Source: Nitrospirota bacterium (lineage in GTDB: Bacteria; Nitrospirota; Nitrospiria; Nitrospirales; Nitrospiraceae). Taken from it: a stretch of DNA of 64,000 nt. The translations under genes were made by a program, and so were the position numbers. Below are positions 10,579 through 60,298 of this stretch, piece by piece. The first letter of the stretch is position 1. Each line of letters begins with the position of its first letter. The notes below the pieces were generated by a model that saw only the letters and a list, made by a program, of their open reading frames with translations, made no database searches and had not been told where the DNA came from. The stretch covers positions 62,001-126,000 of the forward strand of contig JAUXVD010000019.1 in assembly GCA_030684575.1 (NCBI GenBank), read 5' to 3'.

Positions 10579-10722
10579 CCGCCAGAGACTATCACAACGG
10601 AGGCATCATCTGGGTAAAGAAGCAGCGCCATGCTGATCGATGGCTTCTCCTGCCCATTTCAAGTTGCTTCCGCCGACAGGGCTATGCTACCTTCCCTTTC
10701 TTTACAAGGGGATACGTCTGTC

Positions 10723-11919
10723 ATGCCGACAGAAGAACTGAAACAGGACGCCGCGCGGTACTTGATGCAGACCTATACGCGCCAACCGCTCGCGATTGCG
10801 CGGGGGCGGGGGACGAAGGTCTACGATTTTGAGGGGCGAGAGTACCTCGATTTCGTCGGCGGGATTGCGGTCAACATCCTGGGGCATGGTCACCCCGACT
10901 TGATTCAGGCTATCCAGCGCCAAGCCGCGCAGCTGATCCACACGTCGAATCTCTACTACACGGAGCCTCAAGTCAAACTCGCCCAAGTGCTGGTCGAGCA
11001 CTCGTTTGCCGACAAGGTATTTTTCTGCAACAGCGGAGCAGAGGCGAACGAGGCTGCGATTAAACTGGCTCGCCGCTATTCGCATGACAAGTATGGAGCC
11101 GGACGGTACGAAATCGTCACGATGAAGAACTCGTTTCATGGACGGACGATGGCGACGATTACCGCAACGGGGCAGGAAAAGGTTCAAAAGGGCTACGAGC
11201 CGTTACTCCCGGGCTTTCACCATGTCGCCTTCAATAATTTGGAAGAGCTGGAGCAGGCCGTCACCGACAAGACGGCGGCCATTCTGCTCGAACCGATTCA
11301 GGGCGAGGGGGGCGTGCACGTTGCAGATCGTGAATATCTGAAGCAGGTGAGAGCCCTCTGCACAAAAAAAGACGTATTATTGATGTTCGATGAAGTGCAG
11401 ACCGGAATGGGACGAACCGGAACGCTCTTTGCCTATGAGCAGTTAGGGGTACAGCCGGACGTCATGACCCTGGCGAAAGGACTGGGCGGCGGCATGCCGA
11501 TCGGCGCCTGTCTCGCGATCGACTCCGTGGCCCAGGCCTTCTCCCCCGGCAGCCATGCCTCGACATTCGGCGGCAATCCGCTGGCCTGTGCGGCGGGCCT
11601 AGCCGTCTGTCGCATGTTGCTGGAGGGCCAGGTCCTCGATCATGCGCGCCGGATGGGGGAATATTTCGCAAAGGGACTATCCGATTGTCAGGCGCGACAT
11701 CGGGTGGTGCGAGAGGTCCGGGGCCTTGGGCTCTTACAAGGGATTGAGCTCGACATGGAGGGGAAAGTCGTCGTGAGCGAATGTTTGGCGCGCGGCATTC
11801 TGATCAATGGAACCGGTGAACATGTCCTCCGGTTTGTCCCTCCGTTGATCATTACCGAGGTAGAAATCGATCGATTGCTCGACACGTTGACTCAGATTTT
11901 CAGTAAGCAGGCGGCGTAG
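10723..11919 (+). CDS. argD: Acetylornithine/succinyl-DAP aminotransferase ArgD
   Basis: The product is a class III PLP-dependent aminotransferase of 398 residues, the usual ArgD length. It shows FCNSGAEANEAAIKLAR, SFHGRTMATI, the PLP-aspartate region LMFDEVQTGMGRTG and the PLP-lysine motif TLAKGLGGGMPIGA. It converts N-acetylglutamate semialdehyde to N-acetylornithine. The start MPTEELKQDAA at 10723 follows a CAAGGGGA; upstream in-frame codons look like leader. It heads the arg/lys block and is 31 bases from argF. Confidence 0.94.
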   Translation: MPTEELKQDAARYLMQTYTRQPLAIARGRGTKVYDFEGREYLDFVGGIAVNILGHGHPDLIQAIQRQAAQLIHTSNLYYTEPQVKLAQVLVEHSFADKVFFCNSGAEANEAAIKLARRYSHDKYGAGRYEIVTMKNSFHGRTMATITATGQEKVQKGYEPLLPGFHHVAFNNLEELEQAVTDKTAAILLEPIQGEGGVHVADREYLKQVRALCTKKDVLLMFDEVQTGMGRTGTLFAYEQLGVQPDVMTLAKGLGGGMPIGACLAIDSVAQAFSPGSHASTFGGNPLACAAGLAVCRMLLEGQVLDHARRMGEYFAKGLSDCQARHRVVREVRGLGLLQGIELDMEGKVVVSECLARGILINGTGEHVLRFVPPLIITEVEIDRLLDTLTQIFSKQAA

Positions 11920-11950
11920 GGCACCCTCGCACCGATTGGACAAGCTACGC

Positions 11951-12922
11951 ATGATGAAGCAAACGACAAGCCAGCTGGTCGGCAAGAAGGATTTCGTCGA
12001 CATTGCTGCGATCAGCAAAGTGGAGATCGAGCGTCTGTTGGCGTCGGCGGCTCAGTTGAAAGATAAGCAGCGCCGGGGGATTCCCCATCCCCTGCTTCCA
12101 GGAAAGACCTTGGGTCTGCTGTTTCAGAAGCCGTCAACGCGCACGAGAGTCTCCTTCGAGGCAGGCATGAACCAGCTGGGTGGGCATGCCCTGGTGTTGC
12201 CTATGGCCGAGATCCAGCTTTCGCGCGGGGAAAGTGTCGCGGATACGGCCCGCGTGTTGTCCCGCTATCTCGACGCCATCGTCATCCGCACCTACGACCA
12301 TTCCATCGTAGAAGAATGGGCGAAGGAAGCGACGATGCCGGTGATCAATGGATTGACCGACTTGAGCCATCCCTGTCAGGCCCTTTCGGACCTCCTGACC
12401 ATTCGAGAAATAAAAGGCCGGTTGAAGGGAATCAAGATCGCCTATATCGGCGATGGCAACAATGTAGCGAATTCCCTGATCGAAGCGGCGGCAAAGATGG
12501 GAATGATCATCACGTTGGGTTGTCCGGTCGGGTATCAGCCGGAGCAACATGTCGTGGATCGGGCCAGGATCGAGGCAGCCAAAACCGGCGCCGTCATCGA
12601 AATCGGGCTTGACCCCCATGTCGCAGTGAAGGAAGCGGACGTGATCTATACCGATGTGTGGATCAGTATGGGCCGCGAGCGGGAGCATGCACGACGATTG
12701 AAAGTCCTGGCGCCCTATCAAGTGAACAGCCGCCTGTTGCATCGCGCCAAACCGGATGCCATCGTGATGCATTGTTTGCCGGCCCACCGGGGGGAAGAAA
12801 TCAGCGCCGAGGTGCTGGACGGTCCTCAGTCGGTCATCATCGACCAGGCAGAGAACCGGCTGCACATGCAGAAGGCTATTTTAACGAACCTACTAGGCAA
12901 GAGGAGTCGAACGAGACGATGA
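11951..12922 (+). CDS. argF: Ornithine carbamoyltransferase ArgF
   Basis: The carbamoyl-phosphate motif [13 protein letters not shown], the [11 protein letters not shown] segment, and [10 protein letters not shown] near the C-terminus with the catalytic Cys identify an ornithine transcarbamylase. It makes citrulline from ornithine and carbamoyl phosphate. Two adjacent ATGs (11951 and 11954) are possible starts. The stop overlaps the argG start by four bases (ATGA), so argF and argG are translationally coupled. Confidence 0.95.
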
Positions 12923-14130
12923 GTGCTGTCATGAAGAAAGTAGTGTTGGCCTATTCCGGCGGGCTCGATACCTCTGTAATCTTGAAGTGGTTGCAAGAAA
13001 CCTACGATTGCGAGGTGATCGCGTTCTGTGCCGATCTTGGACAAGGCGAAGACCTGCAAGCGATCAAGGCCAAGGCGCAAAAGCTTGGCGTGAAAAAAGT
13101 CTACGTCGAGGATCTGCGCGAGACCTTCGTGAAGGACTATGTGTTTCCGATGTTGCGCGGCAATGCCGTCTACGAAGGCTGCTACCTGCTCGGGACCTCG
13201 ATCGCCCGGCCCCTCATTGCGCGGCGGCAAGCTGAGATCGCGCTGAAGGAAGGGGCCGAGGCGGTGTCGCATGGCGCTACGGGAAAGGGCAACGACCAAG
13301 TGCGGTTTGAGCTGACCTATACCGCCTTGGCGCCGAATCTCAAGATCATTGCGCCTTGGCGCGAATGGACGATGGGGTCGCGGCGCGAATTGATCGAGTA
13401 TGCCGATCGGCATGGCATTCCGATCACGGCGACGAAAGCCAAGCCCTACAGCATGGATCTGAATTTGTTTCATGTGAGTTATGAGGGCGGCATCTTGGAG
13501 GATCCCTGGAAGTCACCGCCGGATGAAATATTTCAAATGACGGTGTCGCCGGAGAAAGCGCCGAACAAGCCGCTTGAAGTCGAAATCGGCTATGAAGCCG
13601 GTAATCCCGTGTCGGTCGACGGGAAGAAAATGAGCCCGGCGACGTTATTGGCCCACCTCAATAAGCTGGGTGGCGCGCATGGGATCGGGCGTGTCGATTT
13701 GGTGGAGAACCGCTACGTCGGGATGAAGTCGCGCGGGGTCTATGAAACGCCGGGCGGGACGATCCTCCACGTGGCCCATCGCGGGATCGAGTCGTTGACG
13801 ATGGATCGCGAGGTGCTGCATTTCAGAGATAGCTTGATTCCGCGCTTCGCCGATTTGATTTACAACGGTTACTGGTTCAGCCCGGAGCGGGAGATGATCC
13901 AGGCTTCGATCGATGTCGCGCAGCAGGATGTGACCGGCACGGCGCGGGTGAAGCTCTATAAGGGGAGCTGCACACTGGCCGGACGGAAGTCGAAGAACTC
14001 GCTCTACCGGCTCGACATCGCCACGTTTGAAGAAGATCAAGTCTATAATCAGAAAGATGCCGAGGGCTTCATTCGGCTGAACGCGTTACGGCTGAAGATC
14101 AGAGCCCAACGAAAGAAGGCCGGTATCTAA
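12919..14130 (+). CDS. argG: Argininosuccinate synthase ArgG
   Basis: The N-terminal PP-loop [14 protein letters not shown] binds ATP. The segments [12 protein letters not shown] and [16 protein letters not shown], with a typical length of 403 residues, are characteristic of ArgG. It condenses citrulline with aspartate. The ATG at 12919 overlaps the argF stop and has AGAGGAG about 13 bases upstream; a second in-frame ATG is at 12931. The stop shares one base with the argH start. Confidence 0.96.
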
Positions 14131-15542
14131 TGACACGAGCAAAGGACCGCAGCTCTGTCGCATCGAAAGGCCCAAAGGCCTGGGACGGGCGGTTCACAGA
14201 GAAGACGAATCGGCTGGTGGAAGCGTTCACCGTATCGGTGGCGGTCGATCGCCGGCTCTATGCCTATGATATTCAGGGCAGCATCGCCCATTGTAAAACA
14301 TTGGGGAAGGCCCGCGTCCTCACCGGAGCTGAGACCAAGGCGATCGTGCGGGGCCTGGAGTCGGTGAAAGTGGAGTTGGATCGAGGCCGTTTTCGCTTCA
14401 CGCCGCAGGATGAGGACATCCACATGGCGATTGAGCGTCGGCTGACCGAATTGATCGGTCCGCTCGGCGGCAAGGTACATACGGGCCGCAGCCGTAACGA
14501 TCAGGTGGCGCTCGATATCCGGCTCTATTTGCGGGATCAGCTGGGTCGGCTCGTGATGCAGTTAGAAGACTTTCAGCGTGTTTTGGTCGCAAAGGGGAAG
14601 GCCAATCGCACCGTGGCGATGCCGGGCTACACCCATCTGCAACGGGCGCAGCCGGTCTTGTTTGCCCATCATCTCTTGGCTTATGTGGAAATGATCGAAC
14701 GGGATAAGGGGCGATTTCTGGATGCCTCGGCGCGCTTAAACGTCATGCCGCTAGGGTCCGGCGCCCTCGCGGGGACCAACTACCCGGTCGATCGCCTCTT
14801 CACCGCCAAGCTGTTGGGTTTTCCCGCCGTCACGCAAAACAGCCTGGATGCCGTGTCCGATCGTGACTTCATGATCGAAGTCGCCTCGGCCTTGTCGATC
14901 ACGATGATGCACCTGTCCCGGTTGAGCGAAGAATTGATCCTCTGGTCATCCCAGGAGTTTCGGTTTGTCGATCTTCCCGATGCCTTCTGTACCGGCAGCA
15001 GCATGATGCCGCAGAAGAAGAATCCCGATGTGCCGGAATTGGTACGGGGCAAGACGGGGCGTGTGTATGGTCACCTCGTGAATCTGTTGACCACCCTCAA
15101 GGCGCTGCCCTTGAGTTATAACCGGGACCTCCAAGAGGATAAGCCGGCGCTCTTCGATGCGCTCGATACGGTTGCCGCGTCGGTAGAGATTTTGACGGAG
15201 CTGATGCGTCGCATGACGGTGAACCGCGACGCGTTGAATCAGGCGCTCCAGGGTGGAGGCATGCTGGCTACGGAAGTGGCGGACTACCTTGTAACCAGAG
15301 GGGTGCCCTTTCGTGAAGCCCATGCGATTACGGGGCGGTTGGTGCGGGCTTCATTGGATCAAGGCCGTGAGCTGACGGATTTCTCGCTCGAAGAGTTGCG
15401 GGAGTTTTCCTCGCGAATCGAAAAGGGTCTGTTCGCTCGGTTGACGGTTACGGCCGCAATCGATCAAAAGGCTCAGATCGGTGGAACGGCCCGAGCGCGA
15501 GTGGAGCAACGCATCAAAGAACTCGAGCGGATGCTCTCGTGA
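14130..15542 (+). CDS. argH: Argininosuccinate lyase ArgH
   Basis: The fumarase/aspartase superfamily signature GSSMMPQKKNPD carries the catalytic serine loop. The N-terminal KAWDGRFTEKTNRLVEAF and the GRSRNDQVALDIRL segment are ArgH-specific. The enzyme cleaves argininosuccinate to arginine and fumarate. The start overlaps the argG stop by one base (TAATG), and the argH stop overlaps the GTG of the next small gene, so the block is tightly coupled. Confidence 0.96.
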   Translation: MTRAKDRSSVASKGPKAWDGRFTEKTNRLVEAFTVSVAVDRRLYAYDIQGSIAHCKTLGKARVLTGAETKAIVRGLESVKVELDRGRFRFTPQDEDIHMAIERRLTELIGPLGGKVHTGRSRNDQVALDIRLYLRDQLGRLVMQLEDFQRVLVAKGKANRTVAMPGYTHLQRAQPVLFAHHLLAYVEMIERDKGRFLDASARLNVMPLGSGALAGTNYPVDRLFTAKLLGFPAVTQNSLDAVSDRDFMIEVASALSITMMHLSRLSEELILWSSQEFRFVDLPDAFCTGSSMMPQKKNPDVPELVRGKTGRVYGHLVNLLTTLKALPLSYNRDLQEDKPALFDALDTVAASVEILTELMRRMTVNRDALNQALQGGGMLATEVADYLVTRGVPFREAHAITGRLVRASLDQGRELTDFSLEELREFSSRIEKGLFARLTVTAAIDQKAQIGGTARARVEQRIKELERMLS

Positions 15543-34710: not shown

Positions 34711-34837
34711 ACAGGCTGCTGAAAATGCCCGCTAGCTTCGTTCTCGGTTCGCAAACATCCTCAACGTACCCCAAGGGTACGCCTCCGGTCTTTGCTCTCC
34801 TTGCGGCCTCGCTATCGGAACATTTTGAGCAGCCTGC
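34711..34837 (+). repeat. Family 1 intergenic repeat, sense copy
   Basis: Starts CAGGCTGCTGAAAATG and ends GAGCAGCCTGC, with a central CGTACCCC/GGGTACG hairpin. It begins four bases after the stop of the coiled-coil gene. Confidence 0.85.
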
Positions 34838-40184: not shown

Positions 40185-41402
40185 GTGTATAGTCTGCTGG
40201 TGTCTCAGCAAGTTGAGGATCGAGCCGATGGGACTTTCGAAGTTTCTAAGGATCGTTTCCTTGAGTACACGAGTGAAGCGACTGCAGCACAGTTACGGCC
40301 TCTTTCAGTGGAATCTATTGACTGTATCAAGTCGTGGCCGTGCGTCTATATGCAGGAGGGGCGGGGCGAAGAACGGGCCTATGTGGGACAGATCACTGCC
40401 ATTCACGACGCAGGTGCTGACATAAAGATTACGGTCGTGTCCTTTCCGACTGAGCCCCCAATTCTCAATGACGATCTATGGAAGCTCCGCACGGAGCTTG
40501 ACATAGAACAATTCGAGTTCAGCCGCAATCATTGGGCTATCAAAGATCAAGATCTCTTTCATGTGCTTTCCGCTGCAGGCCACAAACTCAATCCCTATGT
40601 AATCGAACTATTCAAGGATAAACCACTGCCAGCGCCGCGTCGGCAAGACCTGCTCCGCGCTCGAGACATCATTTCAGAATGGGGCCACACTAAGATCGAC
40701 GATTTCATCCTTGAGGTCGGAGTGGAGGGCTTGGTTGCTGGGCGCGCTGCCGGCAGTCGGCGAGATCGAGCCAATGCGATTATTGAGTTTGCGCTCGCAC
40801 ATCCAGCTGTCACCACCGCTGAGAACTCTCTGCTCTCCGTATTCATTGTGCGATCTGCCGGACTGGGAACTCCTCAAGATTCCGACGCGAAGAGGCTGTC
40901 AGCCGGCATTCCCGAAGCCGGCAATGAATCGCCTCGGAAGCGAGGTGATGGAGGAGCAGCCGGTCGTTCGCCAAACCGTGTATTTGTTGTACATGGTCAA
41001 AACGAATCTGCTAGATCGGCCATCGTGTCGTTTCTCTCGAGGGTTGGATTGGTTGGGATCGTTCTTCATGAGCAGCCCAATATGGGCCGTCACCTGCTAA
41101 CTAAATTCATTGAGGAGGCGGAGCTGGTAACCTTCGCGATCGTTCTTATGACGGATGACGATGTCGGTGGTTTGAGAGGCAAAGAGCTAGCGCCACGTGC
41201 TCGCCAGAATGTCATTCTCGAGCTGGGATACTTTCTGTCTCACCTCGGCCAGGAGCGCGTTTGTGCCCTGATTACTCCAGGTCTCGAGACTCCTTCAGAT
41301 TTCGACGGGATCGTGTATATCCGCATGGATGCTGATGCACGGTGGGGAACAGAGCTAAAGCGTGAGCTGTTAGCAGCGGGTATGCCTTTAATAGAGAAGT
41401 GA
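40185..41402 (+). CDS. TIR-like (CAP12/Pycsar-type) effector with N-terminal domains
   Basis: The last 140 residues (from about 265) are a TIR-like nucleotide-binding domain. It shows VFVVHGQNESARSAI (268-280), VLHEQPNMGR, VLMTDDDVGG, then the conserved PRARQNVILELGYFLSHLG (338-355) with Glu346 at the position of the catalytic Glu, and DGIVYIRMD. This fits the Pfam TIR-like family of CAP12/Pycsar effectors. Ahead of it are a beta-rich domain (about 1-130) and a helical region (about 150-225, with EWGHTKIDDFILEVG and SRRDRANAIIEFALAHP). The start at 40185 is a GTG with AGGGG ten bases upstream. No cyclase gene is nearby, so the signal sensed is unknown. Confidence 0.8.
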   Translation: MYSLLVSQQVEDRADGTFEVSKDRFLEYTSEATAAQLRPLSVESIDCIKSWPCVYMQEGRGEERAYVGQITAIHDAGADIKITVVSFPTEPPILNDDLWKLRTELDIEQFEFSRNHWAIKDQDLFHVLSAAGHKLNPYVIELFKDKPLPAPRRQDLLRARDIISEWGHTKIDDFILEVGVEGLVAGRAAGSRRDRANAIIEFALAHPAVTTAENSLLSVFIVRSAGLGTPQDSDAKRLSAGIPEAGNESPRKRGDGGAAGRSPNRVFVVHGQNESARSAIVSFLSRVGLVGIVLHEQPNMGRHLLTKFIEEAELVTFAIVLMTDDDVGGLRGKELAPRARQNVILELGYFLSHLGQERVCALITPGLETPSDFDGIVYIRMDADARWGTELKRELLAAGMPLIEK

Positions 41403-51464: not shown

Positions 51465-52505
51465 ATGACCATGCCGTTTTTGACTGCGACCGTACCGGGC
51501 ATCGGCGGACAGATGCGGACGCTGCCGGAAGATTTCCAGGTCGAGGAACGTCCGCTCTATCTTCCTTGCGGCGAGGGGGAACATCTCTATATCAAGATCA
51601 AGAAACGCCTGCTCTCCACTCCGGATCTCGTGTTGCGACTCTCTTCGGTCTTGGGGGTGAAAGCGCAGGCGATCGGGGTGGCGGGACTCAAAGATGCCAG
51701 GGCCGTGACGACGCAGATGATTTCACTGCTGGGTGTGACGCCTGACCGGCTGGATCGGCTGAAAGTGGACGAACAGTTGTTGTCGGTGGAGGTACTGGGG
51801 CGACATCGCAATCGGTTACGTCCGGGGCATCATGCCGGCAATGTCTTCCGGTTGGTGATCAGGGATGTCGCCAGCCATGCCCGCGAGACGGTACCCCTGG
51901 TCACGGACATGTTGGCGCGGCGAGGGGTGCCGAACTATTTCGGCCCGCAACGGCAGGGACGGAGTGGACTGAATTATCAGACGGGAGCCGAGTTGCTGGT
52001 GGACCCTGTTCGCCGCAACAAGCTGAGCCGGTCCAAGCGCATGTGGTATCTCAATTCCTATCAGTCGCACTTTTTCAATGCCATGTTGGCCAGGCGGCTG
52101 GATCGGATCGATCGCATCCTGGTGGGAGACTGGGCCATGAAAATGGAGAACGGCGCCTGTTTTCTGGTCGAGGATGCCGCAGTGGAACAGCCCAGGGCGG
52201 ACCAATTCGAAATCAGTCCCACCGGCATCCTATTCGGGTCGCGCGTGTCCTGGGCCACGGGAGAGCCTGGCGAGATCGAACGGGCTGTGGTGGTCGAAAG
52301 CGGCGCCACGCCGGAGAGTCTCACCGAAGCCGCGAAAGCTTGCGGGTTTCGCGGGGAACGGCGCTCGTTCCGAACGCGCCTTGTCGATTTGGACTGGGCC
52401 TTAGATAGCACCGTGCTTACGCTCTCGTTCTCGCTTCCGCCTGGCGCTTATGCGACGAATGTTTTACGGGAATTGATGAAGGTAGGCGAGGGGCCAGAGG
52501 CCTGA
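51465..52505 (+). CDS. truD: tRNA pseudouridine(13) synthase TruD
   Basis: The catalytic Asp is in GVAGLKDARAVTTQ (canonical GLKDRxAxTxQ). NYFGPQRQGRSGLNY and the late LPPGAYATNVLRELMK are also characteristic. TruD modifies U13 of tRNAs. The length of 346 residues is typical. The start MTMPFLTATVPG at 51465 has another in-frame ATG two codons on. The stop region contains an arm of an imperfect inverted repeat with a partner at 52623. Confidence 0.94.
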   Translation: MTMPFLTATVPGIGGQMRTLPEDFQVEERPLYLPCGEGEHLYIKIKKRLLSTPDLVLRLSSVLGVKAQAIGVAGLKDARAVTTQMISLLGVTPDRLDRLKVDEQLLSVEVLGRHRNRLRPGHHAGNVFRLVIRDVASHARETVPLVTDMLARRGVPNYFGPQRQGRSGLNYQTGAELLVDPVRRNKLSRSKRMWYLNSYQSHFFNAMLARRLDRIDRILVGDWAMKMENGACFLVEDAAVEQPRADQFEISPTGILFGSRVSWATGEPGEIERAVVVESGATPESLTEAAKACGFRGERRSFRTRLVDLDWALDSTVLTLSFSLPPGAYATNVLRELMKVGEGPEA

Positions 52506-52660
52506 GGCCAAGGGTAGCGATCAGACGTCTTCACATAGAAGCAGGGTTGTCTGTCATGAGTGCGTGCTATCATTACTTATCAGAGGCATTAGCTCCTGGC
52601 GATGAACTGCTTCCCTCTAGCCCCTAGCCTTTGGCCTCTAGCCTCGAATGGTTTTGAACG

Positions 52661-53902
52661 ATGCAAGACCAAGAAACCGTCATCCTCCAAGGCCACATCA
52701 TCGATTCGTTGATCCTGGCGAAGGTCCTGGATCGGATTCTGATGTTGGGTGGAACTTTCGACCTTCAAGATGTGCAGATCGGCAAGACTCGCGAGGAGCC
52801 GTCGCGCGCCAGGATCATCGTGCGGGCCTCGACGGCGACATTGCTTAGCGAGATTCTCCATGCCATTCAACCTCACGGCGCGTCGGTTGAGAATGAACGG
52901 GATTGCCGACTGGCTGCGGCGCCGGCGGACGGTATCTTTCCCGACGAGTTTTACGCGACGACCCATTTGTCTACCCAGGTGCGCATGCGTGAGCAGTGGG
53001 TGGAGGTGGAGGGGATCGAGATGGACATGGGGATTCGCGTAGACCGGGCTGGCCTGACGGCCCGTACCCTTCCTATGGGAGAAGTACGGCAAGGCGATTT
53101 GATTGTGACCGGTCGTGAGGGTGTGCGGGTGATTCCGCTGCAACGGCCACGTGACCGCGATGTGTTCAGCTTTATGGAGTCGCAGGTGTCGTCCGAGCGT
53201 CCCCATGGGCGCGTGATCAGCGACATTGCCAAACGCCTGGTGCAGTTGCGAACAGGGTTCCGGGAAGGAACCGTGGGCAGCAAAGTGCTGTTGGCAGGAG
53301 GCCCGGCGATTGTTCATGCCGGAGGGCGCGATGCGCTGACATGGCTGATTGAGGAAGAATTCATCCATGTCTTGTTCTGCGGGAATGCCCTGCCCGCTCA
53401 CGACATGGAAGTCGACCTCTACGGCACGTCCCTCGGCTATGGAGATGCCGCCGGTCGGGTCCTGCCGCATGGGCATGAACATCATTTGCGAACGATTAAT
53501 CGGATCAGGGCCATCGGGAGCATCGAGGCCGCAGTTCGTTCGGGAGTCATCAAGACCGGCATTATGGCGGCCTGCGTCAGGAGGGGTGTTCAGGTTGTCA
53601 TGGCCGGCACGATCCGGGATGACGGCCCGTTGCCCGGCGTGATCACGGATTCAGTAGAGGCGCAAGCCACCATGCGTCGGGCAATCCCCGGTGTCGGACT
53701 GGCCCTGCTCGTCGCCTCGACGCTGCATGCGGTGGCGACGGGTAATTTGCTGCCTGCCACGATTCCCTCCGTCTGTGTCGATATCAATCCGGCCGTCCCA
53801 ACCAAGCTTGCAGATCGAGGAAGTTTTCAGGCAGTCGGACTGGTCATGGATGCGGCGTCGTTCTTCCGCGAGCTCGCGCGTGAATTGGGGTGGAAGCTAT
53901 GA
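52661..53902 (+). CDS. TIGR00300/LOR-SDH family protein, probable ornithine cyclodeaminase
   Basis: The protein of 413 residues has the N-terminal LOR/SDH-like conserved region (FDLQDVQIGKTREEPSRARIIV) and a C-terminal Rossmann-like part including VLLAGGPAIVHAGG, CGNALPAHDMEVDLYGTSLG and GYGDAAGRVLPHGHEHH. This matches the TIGR00300 family, which includes archaeal ornithine cyclodeaminase and the C-terminal half of cyanobacterial AgrE/ArgZ. It probably converts ornithine to proline and ammonia. The stop overlaps the start of the arginine dihydrolase-like gene (ATGA), so the two form an operon. Confidence 0.8.
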   Translation: MQDQETVILQGHIIDSLILAKVLDRILMLGGTFDLQDVQIGKTREEPSRARIIVRASTATLLSEILHAIQPHGASVENERDCRLAAAPADGIFPDEFYATTHLSTQVRMREQWVEVEGIEMDMGIRVDRAGLTARTLPMGEVRQGDLIVTGREGVRVIPLQRPRDRDVFSFMESQVSSERPHGRVISDIAKRLVQLRTGFREGTVGSKVLLAGGPAIVHAGGRDALTWLIEEEFIHVLFCGNALPAHDMEVDLYGTSLGYGDAAGRVLPHGHEHHLRTINRIRAIGSIEAAVRSGVIKTGIMAACVRRGVQVVMAGTIRDDGPLPGVITDSVEAQATMRRAIPGVGLALLVASTLHAVATGNLLPATIPSVCVDINPAVPTKLADRGSFQAVGLVMDAASFFRELARELGWKL

Positions 53903-54699
53903 GTCGCCTGTTGGTCTGTCCACCGGACTACTTCAGCATCGAATACGAAATTAATCCCTGGATGCGCCGTTCGAACGCCGTCAATTCAGAGGAGGCCAAC
54001 CGGCAATGGCATCATCTCATGCAGGTGCTCGAACAGGATGTGGGCGCGGTGCTGGAGCGAATGAAGCCGGTGCCTGGACTGCCCGACCTGGTGTTCACGG
54101 CGAACGCCGGCATTGTCGTTGGGCGTCAGGCTGTGCCGAGCCGGTTTCGCTATCCGGAGCGGCAACGGGAGGAGGTCTACTTCGAAGAATGGTTTCGGGG
54201 CCAGGGGTACGACGTCGTTAAGTTGGATCCTGGCTGCTTCTTCGAGGGGGCCGGGGATCTCCTGGGTTTTTCCGATACCTGGTTCGGTGGGTATCGACAG
54301 CGATCGGATATCCGTGTGTTCCCGACGCTCAGCGAGTGGTTTCACCGGGAAATCATTCCACTCGAACTGGTCGACAACCGGTTCTATCACCTCGACACCT
54401 GCTTATGTCCCTTGAGCGGAGGTGAACTCCTGTATTTCCCCTCTGCCTTCGATCGGTATGGGCAAGAGGCGCTTGCCGAGCGGATTGCGCCTGCTAGACG
54501 TCTCGTCGTATCGGAATCTGAAGCGCTCCGGTTTGCCTGCAACGCCATCTGTGTCGGAAAACATGTCGTGCTGCCAGACGGATGCCCGGACACAGAATCC
54601 CAGTTGACCTCGCATGGTTATCTCCCCCATCCGGTCCCGCTCGATGAATTTATGAAGTCGGGCGGATCGGCGAAGTGTCTTACCCTCGCTCTCGACTGA
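53899..54699 (+). CDS. Arginine dihydrolase-like amidinotransferase-family protein
   Basis: The 266-residue protein has the fold pattern of the guanidine-modifying superfamily: YEINPWMRRSN, LVFTANAGIVVG, FEGAGDLLGF, FYHLDTCLCPLSGG with the catalytic His, and GGSAKCLTLALD with the nucleophilic Cys seven residues from the end. These match the N-terminal domain of ArgZ/AgrE, which turns arginine into ornithine, carbon dioxide and two ammonia. The ATG at 53899 sits on the stop of the LOR/SDH gene. The two genes therefore appear to be a split version of the cyanobacterial fusion, in the opposite order. Confidence 0.8.
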   Translation: MSRLLVCPPDYFSIEYEINPWMRRSNAVNSEEANRQWHHLMQVLEQDVGAVLERMKPVPGLPDLVFTANAGIVVGRQAVPSRFRYPERQREEVYFEEWFRGQGYDVVKLDPGCFFEGAGDLLGFSDTWFGGYRQRSDIRVFPTLSEWFHREIIPLELVDNRFYHLDTCLCPLSGGELLYFPSAFDRYGQEALAERIAPARRLVVSESEALRFACNAICVGKHVVLPDGCPDTESQLTSHGYLPHPVPLDEFMKSGGSAKCLTLALD

Positions 54700-54704
54700 T
54701 TCGA

Positions 54705-54828
54705 GCGGCTGCTGAAAATGTCCGCTAGCTGCGTTCTCGGCTCGCAACCATCCCCAACGTACCCTAAGGGTACGCCTCCGGTGCTTGCTCGCCTGCGGCC
54801 TTGCTATCGGAACATTTTGAGCAGCCGC
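54705..54828 (+). repeat. Family 1 intergenic repeat, sense copy
   Basis: Starts GCGGCTGCTGAAAATG five bases after the stop of the dihydrolase gene and ends GAGCAGCCGC, with a CGTACCC/GGGTACG hairpin. The first copies of the end sequences are mutated together (GCGGCTGC/GCAGCCGC), keeping the pairing. Confidence 0.87.
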
Positions 54829-56151: not shown

Positions 56152-56444
56152 CACTCGCTTCCTCACTTTCACTTGAAAACAATGTCCATTTCATCCTAAT
56201 CGGTCGAGGCATTAGGACGAAGAACATTTTACATTCGTACAGTGAGGGAGCAAGGCATATGCCACTTCAGCTATTTCAGCCACGATTGAGGGGGCCTGCG
56301 GAGCGGGCTGGACTTGACAAATTTCAAGGGCGGCCTCTCGTTCATTGACAGGCAGGAGAGACGGTTCCTATAATCCGCCCGCCAGAGGACTGACCCAGAG
56401 CCGCTATTGGCTGTCATCCATCCTCCAAGCACTGTGTGAACATT

Positions 56445-57464
56445 ATGCAGATCGTGAATCGTATCGGCGTGATCGGCGCTGGTGCCTGGGGCACCGCGCT
56501 CGCCAAACACATGGCGGAAAAGGGACTGCACGTCAGGCTTTGGGCCTATGAGCGGGACGTCGTCGATTCGATCAATCAGACGCACGAGAATCGGGTCTTC
56601 CTGCCTGGTGCGACCTTGCCCCCATCGCTCAGCGCGACGAATTCTCTCGTGGACGCCGTGAGCAATTGTGACGGCCTCCTTTTTGTCGTTCCGTCGCATG
56701 TGGCCAGGCTCGTCCTCCAGCAGCTCGCTCCTCTCGTGCCCTCCTCTATGCCCCTGATCAGTGCGACAAAGGGTGTTGAAGAAGAGACGTTCAAGTTGAT
56801 GACTCAGGTGATGGAGGAGGTGCTGCCTGTGCCGCTACATTCCAGGCTGATGGTTTTGTCCGGGCCGAGTTTTGCGGCAGAAGTGAGTCAGAGGCAGCCC
56901 ACGGCTCTCTGTCTCGCGGGGCGGGACTCCTCTCTGGTGAGCGCGTTTCAAGCGGCATTGATGACCCCCACGCTGCGCGTCTATGCGGATAGCGATATGA
57001 CCGGCGTCCAATTGGGCGGGGCATTGAAGAACGTGATGGCCATAGCAGCCGGAGTTGTCGACGGACTGGGCCTTGGCCACAATGCCAGGGCTGCCTTGAT
57101 TACGAGAGGCCTGGCTGAAATGGTTCGCCTTGGGATGGCGATGGGCGCCGATGCGCGCACGTTTTACGGACTCTCGGGCATGGGAGATCTGGTGCTGACC
57201 TGTACCGGCTCGTTGAGCCGGAATCATACGGTCGGCGTTCGGCTAGGGAAAGGCGAACGGCTGGAGACGATTCTCGGCGGGATGCAAGCCGTGGCCGAAG
57301 GTGTACGGACGGCCAAGGCGGCGTCGGGATTAGCCCATCGCCACAATGTTGAAATGCCGATCGTGCGCGAGATCAACGCGGTATTGTTCGAAGGCAAGTC
57401 CTGCCGCAAGGCGGTCACGGATCTCATGGAGCGTGATGCCAAGCCTGAGAAGGGGAACGCATGA
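56445..57464 (+). CDS. gpsA: Glycerol-3-phosphate dehydrogenase [NAD(P)+] GpsA
   Basis: The Rossmann motif IGVIGAGAWGTALA, SGPSFAAEV, the catalytic lysine region LKNVMAIAAGVVDGLGLG, and TCTGSLSRN identify GpsA, which supplies glycerol-3-phosphate for phospholipid synthesis. The start at 56445 (MQIVNR) is an ATG; a GTG at 56436 is three codons longer and neither has a clear ribosome binding site. The stop overlaps the larB start (ATGA). Confidence 0.93.
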   Translation: MQIVNRIGVIGAGAWGTALAKHMAEKGLHVRLWAYERDVVDSINQTHENRVFLPGATLPPSLSATNSLVDAVSNCDGLLFVVPSHVARLVLQQLAPLVPSSMPLISATKGVEEETFKLMTQVMEEVLPVPLHSRLMVLSGPSFAAEVSQRQPTALCLAGRDSSLVSAFQAALMTPTLRVYADSDMTGVQLGGALKNVMAIAAGVVDGLGLGHNARAALITRGLAEMVRLGMAMGADARTFYGLSGMGDLVLTCTGSLSRNHTVGVRLGKGERLETILGGMQAVAEGVRTAKAASGLAHRHNVEMPIVREINAVLFEGKSCRKAVTDLMERDAKPEKGNA

Positions 57465-58213
57465 ATCCTGCAGCGCTCGAACGATTGCTGACAAAAGTCC
57501 AAACCGGCACGTTGCCTGTGGCGACGGCGATGGAACAGCTTCGCACCTTGCCCTATGAAGATCTCGGATTTGCGTCGCTCGATCATCATCGATCGTTACG
57601 GCAGGGTTTCCCCGAGGTCATCTTCTGCGAGGGGAAGACGTTGGTGCAGATTCGTGCGATTGCGAAGGCCCTCTTGAAACATCATCGTCCATTGTTGGCG
57701 ACGCGTGCGACTCCCCAAGTCGGCGCACTCATTACACGGCTTGACCGCCGAGCGGTCTATCATGACGAGGCGCGGATTGTGTCGATTCGCGACCCCAAGC
57801 GCCGGCTGCAAGGGCATGTGCTGGTGGTGACCGCGGGGACTTCCGATATTCCCGTCGCGGAAGAGGCGAGAGTGACGGCGGAGGTGATGGGGAGCCGGGT
57901 TGAGACGCTCTATGACGTGGGCGTGGCCGGCATTCATCGGTTGCTCGAGCGTCAAAGCCGGCTCATGCAGGCCCGAGTGGTCGTGGTGGTCGCAGGGATG
58001 GATGGAGTCTTGCCCAGCGTCGTCGGCGGGTTGGTGGCCTGTCCGGTTGTGGCCGTACCGACGAGTCGGGGCTATGGTGCAAGTTTCGGTGGATTGGCCG
58101 CGCTGTTGACGATGCTGAATTCCTGCTCGGCGGGGGTCGGCGTCATGAATATCGATAATGGCTTCGGGGCCGGGTGCCTCGCGCACCGGATCAACGTATT
58201 GGCAGGATGCTGA
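57461..58213 (+). CDS. larB: Nickel-pincer cofactor biosynthesis protein LarB
   Basis: The 250-residue product has the LarB pattern: PEVIFCEGKT, VVTAGTSDIPVAEEA, DVGVAGIHRLL, VVVVAGMDGVLPSVVGGL and VAVPTSRGYGASFGGLAALL. LarB carboxylates and hydrolyses nicotinic acid adenine dinucleotide for the lactate-racemase pincer cofactor. It starts on the gpsA stop (ATGA). The last three residues (Ala-Gly-Cys) and the stop TGA come from the left end of a family 1 repeat, GCAGGATGCTGA, so the coding end is repeat-derived. Confidence 0.9.
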   Translation: MNPAALERLLTKVQTGTLPVATAMEQLRTLPYEDLGFASLDHHRSLRQGFPEVIFCEGKTLVQIRAIAKALLKHHRPLLATRATPQVGALITRLDRRAVYHDEARIVSIRDPKRRLQGHVLVVTAGTSDIPVAEEARVTAEVMGSRVETLYDVGVAGIHRLLERQSRLMQARVVVVVAGMDGVLPSVVGGLVACPVVAVPTSRGYGASFGGLAALLTMLNSCSAGVGVMNIDNGFGAGCLAHRINVLAGC

Positions 58214-58923: not shown

Positions 58924-59092
58924 AGGGTTTTGTGTGGAGCCGCGTATTGTGGACAAGCGCCCGGTCGGTGGGCCAATGCAGTGGGGATAACACAGCGTTG
59001 GAAGGCTGTCAACGCTCGCCCTGGCCGATTGCCGTTCGTACGCGCCTTGGGTAAGATGGGCGCGGTCTGAGTTGAGTCGAGAAAGGATCTAC

Positions 59093-60298
59093 GTGGGCGG
59101 GCATCTCCATTTCGATTGTTATTCCGGCATCAGCGGCGATATGACCCTCGGCGCGCTTGTGGATGTCGGCGTGCCGTTCCCCGATTTGGTGAACGGGCTG
59201 AAGCGGCTTCGTCTTTCAGGCGTCACGCTCCGGAAGCGGAGGGTGCAACGGGGAGCGATCCATGCCACGAAGGTCGACGTCATTATTGCGAAGGGGTTGC
59301 AGCATCCGCTGTCCCTCACGCGTATTCACCGGATCCTTGCCGCAAGCCGACTCTCGGACAAGATCAAGCAGCAAAGCCGATCCGTCTTCGATCTCTTGGC
59401 CGAGGCGGAGGGGCATGCCCATCGTGTGGCCAAAGATCACGTCCATTTCCATGAAGTCGGTGTGCTCGACTCGTTTGTCGATATCGTCGGCGGGCTCATT
59501 GGCTGTGATCTGTTAGGCGTCACGCGTGTGACGGCCTCCCCCGTTAATGTTGGAACGGGGACGTTGCAATCTGCGCATGGGATCTTGCCGGCGCCCGGTC
59601 CGGCGGTCGCCATTCTGGCCAAAGGGATTCCGATCTACAGTGCCGGTCCCGCCCGTGAACTGACCACACCGACTGGCATGGCGCTGTTGCGCACGCTAAC
59701 ATCGGAGTTCGGTCCCATGCCGGTCATGACCCCGACGACGATCGGGTATGGTGCGGGAGATGCCGATCCCATAGGCTGGCCGAATGCCTTGCGGGTGTTT
59801 CTTGCGAGGCCGTCAACTACACATACGCGCGAACAAGACACTGTGCTGCAGGTCGAAACGAACCTCGACGATGTCAATCCCCAAGTCTATGAGCATGTGA
59901 TGGAGCAGTTACTGTCCCGTGGGGCGCTGGACGTAACGCTTGCGCCGGTCATCATGAAACGTGGACGCCCCGGTGTCGTCCTAACCTGTCTTGTCGCGCA
60001 GGCAGAGCTGGAGGGGATTCTTGATGTGGTGTTTCAAGAAACGACGGCGTTGGGAGTTCGAGTCTGTGAGGTCATGCGACAGATCCTCCCCCGGCGATTT
60101 GTGTCGGTGAAGGTGCCTGGAGGAGTTGTCCGGATGAAGATTGCCGAGGTAAATGGTACGACGACGAAGGCCGCTCCAGAATATCTCGATTGTAAACGGA
60201 TCGCCGAACGAACGGGCCGCCCCGTGAAAGCCGTACTCGACGAGGCGGCCCTCGCCTATGCCAAACGGCGGGTGACCAGGACGGCGGGTCCGCGATGA
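59093..60298 (+). CDS. larC: Nickel-pincer cofactor biosynthesis protein LarC
   Basis: LarC inserts nickel into the pincer nucleotide. The start region GGHLHFDCYSGISGDMTLGAL matches the N-terminus of LarC. Later segments AHRVAKDHVHFHEVGVLDS with several His, NVGTGTLQSAHGILPAPGPA, TTIGYGAGDAD and ETNLDDVNPQVYEHVMEQL agree with the family. The GTG at 59093 is preferred because AAAGGA lies five bases upstream; a TTG at 59072 is less natural. larA and larE are not in the window. The stop overlaps the antiporter start. Confidence 0.88.
   Translation: MGGHLHFDCYSGISGDMTLGALVDVGVPFPDLVNGLKRLRLSGVTLRKRRVQRGAIHATKVDVIIAKGLQHPLSLTRIHRILAASRLSDKIKQQSRSVFDLLAEAEGHAHRVAKDHVHFHEVGVLDSFVDIVGGLIGCDLLGVTRVTASPVNVGTGTLQSAHGILPAPGPAVAILAKGIPIYSAGPARELTTPTGMALLRTLTSEFGPMPVMTPTTIGYGAGDADPIGWPNALRVFLARPSTTHTREQDTVLQVETNLDDVNPQVYEHVMEQLLSRGALDVTLAPVIMKRGRPGVVLTCLVAQAELEGILDVVFQETTALGVRVCEVMRQILPRRFVSVKVPGGVVRMKIAEVNGTTTKAAPEYLDCKRIAERTGRPVKAVLDEAALAYAKRRVTRTAGPR

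Follow-up and report, generated by a model that had tools for sequence, protein, structure and literature searches.

The cyanobacterial enzyme AgrE converts arginine to proline with an overall stoichiometry of one CO2 and three NH4+ released per arginine (PMC8262935). MMP_1218 of the archaeon Methanococcus maripaludis is cited in a methanogen paper as an ornithine cyclodeaminase that forms proline from ornithine (PMC10809761). With regard to a possible cofactor, the nickel-pincer nucleotide (NPN), about 15% of genomes carry larB, larC and larE without larA, and a yet-to-be-identified NPN client with a fold distinct from that of LarA has been predicted, notably in cyanobacteria (PMC11796402). 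No direct report of an arginine dihydrolase or ornithine cyclodeaminase in Nitrospira was found in the literature searched, nor any linking NPN to an ornithine cyclodeaminase.

We analysed a window of 64,000 nucleotides, a continuous stretch from the genome of a Nitrospirota bacterium, centring on two overlapping genes (ORF1 and ORF2). The features listed here all lie on the forward strand:

10630-15542, + strand: argD, argF, argG and argH, late arginine biosynthesis (NCBIfam models over cut-off)
52661-53902, + strand: ORF1, TIGR00300-family ornithine cyclodeaminase of the LOR/SDH type, 413 aa (TIGR00300, Pfam and PDB matches)
53899-53902, + strand: ATGA stop/start overlap of ORF1 and ORF2 (sequence)
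53899-54699, + strand: ORF2, ArgZ/AgrE-like arginine dihydrolase with the guanidino-modifying enzyme fold, 266 aa (phmmer, residues and AlphaFold model)
56345-56374, + strand: putative sigma-70-like promoter TTGACA-18-TATAAT before gpsA-larB (12/12 consensus matches)
56436-57464, + strand: gpsA, glycerol-3-phosphate dehydrogenase, between the pair and larB, a synteny marker (NF000942, 438 bits)
57461-58213, + strand: LarB, NPN biosynthesis (pyridinium carboxylase; NF033503, 288 bits, cut-off 175)
59072-60298, + strand: LarC (LarC1 and LarC2 in one frame), nickel insertion (TIGR00299 and NF052512 over cut-off)

We read the two ORFs as a translationally coupled arginine catabolic module with a recycling role, in which NPN is most likely the hydride carrier of ORF1, and put the probability of this reading at roughly three in four. 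ORF2 would hydrolyse L-arginine twice at one active-site cysteine to give L-ornithine, CO2 and two NH3, with no citrulline released, and ORF1 would cyclise the ornithine to L-proline, setting free a third NH3; jointly they would do the work that cyanobacterial AgrE does in one polypeptide. The hydride carrier of ORF1 would most likely be NPN made by LarB, LarC and LarE, with NAD+ as the alternative. The module would serve to recycle arginine nitrogen, from protein turnover or imported arginine, and would provide an ornithine route to proline, rather than supplying energy. What the data show directly is how the genes are built and conserved, which families and residues they carry, the modelled fold of ORF2 and the Lar gene complement; both reactions, the cofactor and the physiology are what we infer from protein families and gene content.

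The initial annotation had described both ORFs, the ATGA overlap, the 266 residues of the second protein and its motifs FYHLDTCLCPL and GGSAKCLTL. All were confirmed, with both ORFs where it had placed them and the motifs at residues 162-172 and 255-263. In the window translation ORF2 starts at the ATG at 53899, with a listed GTG start (53890) lying upstream of it. The ATGA overlap suggests translational coupling. The pair is kept at 70-90% identity throughout the family of the window's genome and is therefore not a chance juxtaposition. The enzyme identities proposed at the outset are also supported, with ORF1 over the TIGR00300 cut-off and ORF2 nearest to ArgZ/AgrE, and we hold both calls to be correct with moderate to high confidence.

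A long, nearly perfect palindromic element follows the pair (54705-54828; fold z -4.8). A second copy, 92% alike, lies 20 kb away at 34712-34836, which marks the element as a dispersed repeat and not a gene-specific terminator. The intergenic stem at 52480-52660 was unremarkable (z -1.5). Elsewhere in the window, residues 304-384 of a 405-aa protein (40185-41402) weakly match the CBASS effector Cap12, far under the cut-off.

ORF1 matched TIGR00300 over residues 6-409 with 443 bits, above the full-length equivalog cut-off of 410.8, in agreement with the original LOR/SDH-TIGR00300 call. In NCBIfam release 20 the family bears the name 'ornithine cyclodeaminase, nickel-pincer nucleotide-dependent'. 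The three Pfam domains of the ArgZ-like C-terminal type (PF04455, PF21571 and PF21570) were all matched, and the mu-crystallin-type ornithine cyclodeaminase Pfam was not; ORF1 carries ArgZ-like and LOR/SDH domains only. Its PDB matches were 3c2q and the C-terminal part of AgrE and ArgZ. The AlphaFold model (pLDDT 84) had a TM of 0.84 to the C-terminal part of ArgZ and a TMt of 0.91, with 42% identity, to 3c2q from M. maripaludis S2. We take 3c2q, which is from the same species, to be MMP_1218. The fold is also distantly like that of NAD-dependent deoxyhypusine synthase, and LarA was absent among the 50 fold matches listed. Across about 90 sequences including AgrE, H12, H219, H247, D248, H272, H274, H275, D320, D321, H356, K382 and D385 were invariant, together with others, and most of the invariant residues recurred in a second comparison. 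ORF1 is about 36% identical to AgrE/ArgZ and shares their invariant His, Lys and Asp residues.

Partial likenesses to this family were seen in other proteins. A GSU2086-family protein (442 bits, cut-off 250; L002:1279-2295, G000:C21:135159-135380 region) has a weak local likeness to the Rossmann part of TIGR00300, and weak matches of this kind occur in many Nitrospirota genomes. The small N-terminal LOR/SDH domain was found alone (79-96 aa) directly before a dihydrolase in a Gastranaerophilales genome (L131:9698-9985) and a Verrucomicrobiota genome (L133:9760-9996), both with no other TIGR00300 match, which hints at a separate, perhaps regulatory, role for this domain.

The nearest solved proteins to ORF2 were AgrE (phmmer against the PDB, E=1.6e-74) and ArgZ, with dimethylargininase (DDAH) next at 6e-5. 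The best NCBIfam model was Arg_dihydro (NF052232), followed by the matching part of the bifunctional ArgZ model. The Arg_dihydro score of 281.4 bits is below the cut-off of 450, though it is the top-scoring model; relatives of ORF2 from other lineages score 266-338 on it, and the model is apparently tuned to the cyanobacterial domain. The AlphaFold model of ORF2 (pLDDT 94) had a TM of 0.96 and an rmsd of 1.2 to the N-terminal domain of ArgZ (6juz/6jv1). DDAH reached a TM of about 0.82, and none of the arginine deiminases listed exceeded 0.79. The structural alignment gave 44% identity to AgrE/ArgZ. The catalytic set of ArgZ/AgrE (Asn71, His, Cys264) is present as Asn69, His164 and Cys260. Asn69 aligns with the ArgZ residue altered in N71S (6juz) and Cys260 with the AgrE residue altered in C264A (6lrh), and Asn69, Glu116, Asp120, His164 and Cys260 were unvarying in 123 sequences. 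In the comparison fixed beforehand as the one able to overturn the dihydrolase call, ORF2 aligned far better with ArgZ/AgrE than with DDAH or arginine deiminase (ADI), with the three catalytic residues kept.

It is improbable, in our judgement, that ORF2 is a methylarginine hydrolase (DDAH) or an arginine deiminase yielding citrulline, with its neighbourhood to ORF1 incidental. PF19420 (DDAH_eukar) was matched over its gathering score and the Mtb-type dimethylargininase model NF045659 gave 237.6 bits, but the latter is below its cut-off of 300 and less than the score for Arg_dihydro; two other DDAH models gave 60.5 of 340 and 26.5 of 450 bits, both under cut-off, and the arginine deiminase model TIGR01078 gave 10.6 bits against 489. 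The residue at the position of Asn69 is Asp in human DDAH1 (the sequence used is identical to PDB 2jai) and in an ADI-like Bacillus protein. Asn is also found there in actinobacterial proteins annotated as dimethylargininase, so Asn69 excludes classical DDAH and ADI only and not that subgroup. These actinobacterial proteins, however, have HLDTA and F(S/A)AN, whereas ORF2 shares HLDTC and FTAN with AgrE, and the constant pairing of ORF2 with an ornithine-consuming enzyme tips the balance toward a dihydrolase. Classical DDAH was rejected on Asn69 and the model scores, and agmatine or arginine deiminase was ruled out by model scores, residues and fold comparison. Among the dimethylargininases encountered, one gene annotated as such is carried by a Pseudonocardia plasmid, next to genes for non-ribosomal peptide synthetases (L146:2962-3786), and a further match was on a Mycobacterium ulcerans plasmid.

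The cyclodeaminase came first and the dihydrolase second in all 90 full pairs, which were drawn from Nitrospirota, Planctomycetota, Chloroflexota, Armatimonadota, Myxococcota and others, and the intergenic gap was 0-12 bases in most of them (median 9). Six zero-gap pairs (L003, which is the window, L008, L009, L015, L029 and L089) were flagged by a script as being in frame with no stop; the zero gap of the window is the ATGA overlap and no fusion. The contrast drawn in the initial annotation, separate genes in reverse order compared to the cyanobacterial fusion, is correct, but it does not make this locus peculiar since every pair shares the order, and the idea of an unusual reversal was dropped. 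The two-gene order is the general bacterial arrangement and the cyanobacterial fusion the exception. In the ORF2 tree the Nitrospirota of the window's order formed a cluster, together with one Nitrospinota record, and AgrE/ArgZ a separate branch.

Both ORFs were present in 31 of the 32 genomes of the window's family, with N. moscoviensis and 'Candidatus Nitrospira defluvii' (FP929003) among the pair-bearing relatives. Nitrospira sp. CG24E, a further named relative (ORF2 88%), has been called clade B comammox (PMC6311188). The sole exception (G102) may reflect a gap in the assembly, since its contig breaks off about 450 bases upstream of gpsA, at the expected position of the pair. Within the Nitrospira family the pair forms a core pathway that is nearly universal. 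Across 148 Nitrospirota genomes, TIGR00300 was found over cut-off in 36 and ORF2 in 46, and among 49 ORF2-bearing genomes, mostly outside the family, 41 had TIGR00300 over cut-off, even where the genes were non-adjacent. There are also lineages in which ORF2 occurs but TIGR00300 does not reach its cut-off. In one Nitrospira MAG (L076:8815-10798; 2.7 Mb) the dihydrolase follows truD and the cyclodeaminase was not found.

Downstream of the pair come two reverse-strand ORFs, the promoter-like site, gpsA, LarB and LarC, in that order. LarB and LarC, which lie 3-5 kb downstream of the pair, were absent from the initial annotation. A single operon of the pair with larB and larC was rejected, as the two intervening reverse-strand ORFs and the promoter-like site suggest separate transcription units. 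LarE is encoded elsewhere in the genome (C8:386321-387088; 309 bits, cut-off 150), as is a second LarB (G000:C21:62587-63195; L043:7570-8205) that is 67% identical to the first. This second LarB gene lies directly after an L-threonylcarbamoyladenylate synthase gene, with no LarC nearby. No LarA domain was found in the window's genome, and two positive control genomes gave matches. Since LarB, LarC and LarE are present and the LarA domain is absent, the genome appears to make NPN without its classical client, and ORF1 is the best candidate client on gene content. TIGR00300 fits the client predicted in PMC11796402, and the NCBIfam name of the family points the same way; the literature searched did not reveal the origin of that name.

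In all but one of 31 family genomes LarB lay no more than 6 kb from the pair, and across the phylum it was over cut-off in all 36 TIGR00300-bearing genomes compared to 66 of the 112 others (Fisher p 2e-7, an association that is phylogenetically confounded and uncorrected for kinship). Outside Nitrospirota, among genomes reached via ORF2, LarB was present in 30 of 35 with TIGR00300 and 5 of 7 without, a difference that was not significant; the five TIGR00300-bearing genomes without LarB are possibly incomplete MAGs. LarB stays with gpsA in G102 (with LarC too) and in G131, where the pair was not found, and its linkage to the pair may be plain synteny.

Within the same pathway, ORF1 could be an NAD(H)-dependent ornithine cyclodeaminase of the ordinary kind, with the Lar genes nearby serving another protein, an account we regard as possible but doubtful. 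The AgrE crystal structure 6lrg contains ornithine and NAD+, and the distant fold likeness of ORF1 to deoxyhypusine synthase is to an NAD-dependent enzyme; NCBIfam curators, in contrast, name TIGR00300 NPN-dependent. AgrE shares the conserved residues of ORF1, which therefore do not discriminate between NPN and NAD+. LarA is present in 11 of the 32 family genomes, but most, the window's included, have no LarA to use NPN. The retention of LarB in the two genomes where TIGR00300 was not found, and the five genomes outside the phylum where LarB was not seen, are consistent with NAD(H), whereas the presence of LarB in every TIGR00300-bearing Nitrospirota genome argues for NPN. We lean toward the latter: somewhat more probably than otherwise, the TIGR00300 half of the module is a LarA-independent NPN client in Nitrospira and many LarA-less bacteria, which would make arginine nitrogen recycling nickel-dependent. 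This bears on the question, open in 2024, of what uses NPN in those genomes, roughly 15%, that synthesise it but lack LarA. Judging by the current NCBIfam name, curators seem already to have an answer, and Nitrospira, most of whose genomes have the Lar synthesis genes but lack LarA, is well suited to testing it.

The initial annotation spoke of full arginine synthesis, which is supported for its late half (argD, argF, argG and argH). proC is present elsewhere in the genome, so the idea that the pair makes up for an absent proline pathway was dropped, and with the arg genes it means that the module is not the sole source of ornithine or, in so far as tested, of proline. Unregulated, the module would form a futile cycle with arginine synthesis, which makes a part in turnover or in the use of external arginine most plausible. 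An internal ammonia source for a nitrifier, also proposed initially, is unsupported: the AMO search (PF02461) gave no match in the genome, with the control genomes equally silent, and the late arginine synthesis genes lie in the same window. Arginine-derived ammonia would go mainly to nitrogen assimilation or turnover. We consider it unlikely that the pair works mainly as an ornithine-ammonia cycle, in which ORF2 returns ornithine to argF, ORF1 is minor and nitrogen is cycled. The arg genes in the window would suit such a cycle, as would the lineages that carry ORF2 without TIGR00300 over cut-off and MAG L076, which retains ORF2 without ORF1, but 31 of 32 family genomes have retained ORF1, which in the window overlaps ORF2. 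The genome also has no cyanophycin synthetase over cut-off (best match 119 bits against 850), which counts against the cycle and led us to drop a link to cyanophycin.

The recycling module proposed here is closest to AgrE (Anabaena Alr4995) and ArgZ (Synechocystis Sll1336), both domains of which are homologous to the window's ORFs. In these the dihydrolase comes first in one polypeptide, whereas the window has two genes with the cyclodeaminase gene first, and on the bifunctional ArgZ model (NF052231; cut-off 1025) the two proteins scored 346 and 279.5 bits; the window's genome also differs in having no cyanophycin synthetase over cut-off. ORF1, like the archaeal MMP_1218/3c2q type, is a TIGR00300 member over the equivalog cut-off, but it is bacterial, is coupled to a dihydrolase and occurs in a genome with proC. 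The Mtb-type dimethylargininase (NF045659) shares the fold family of ORF2 and has Asn where classical DDAH has Asp; ORF2, however, scores under its cut-off and has HLDTC/FTAN as in AgrE. With the lactate racemase system LarABCE the window's genome has LarB, LarC and LarE in common but not LarA. The module is widespread among bacteria, and the fusion seen in cyanobacteria is one of the forms it takes.
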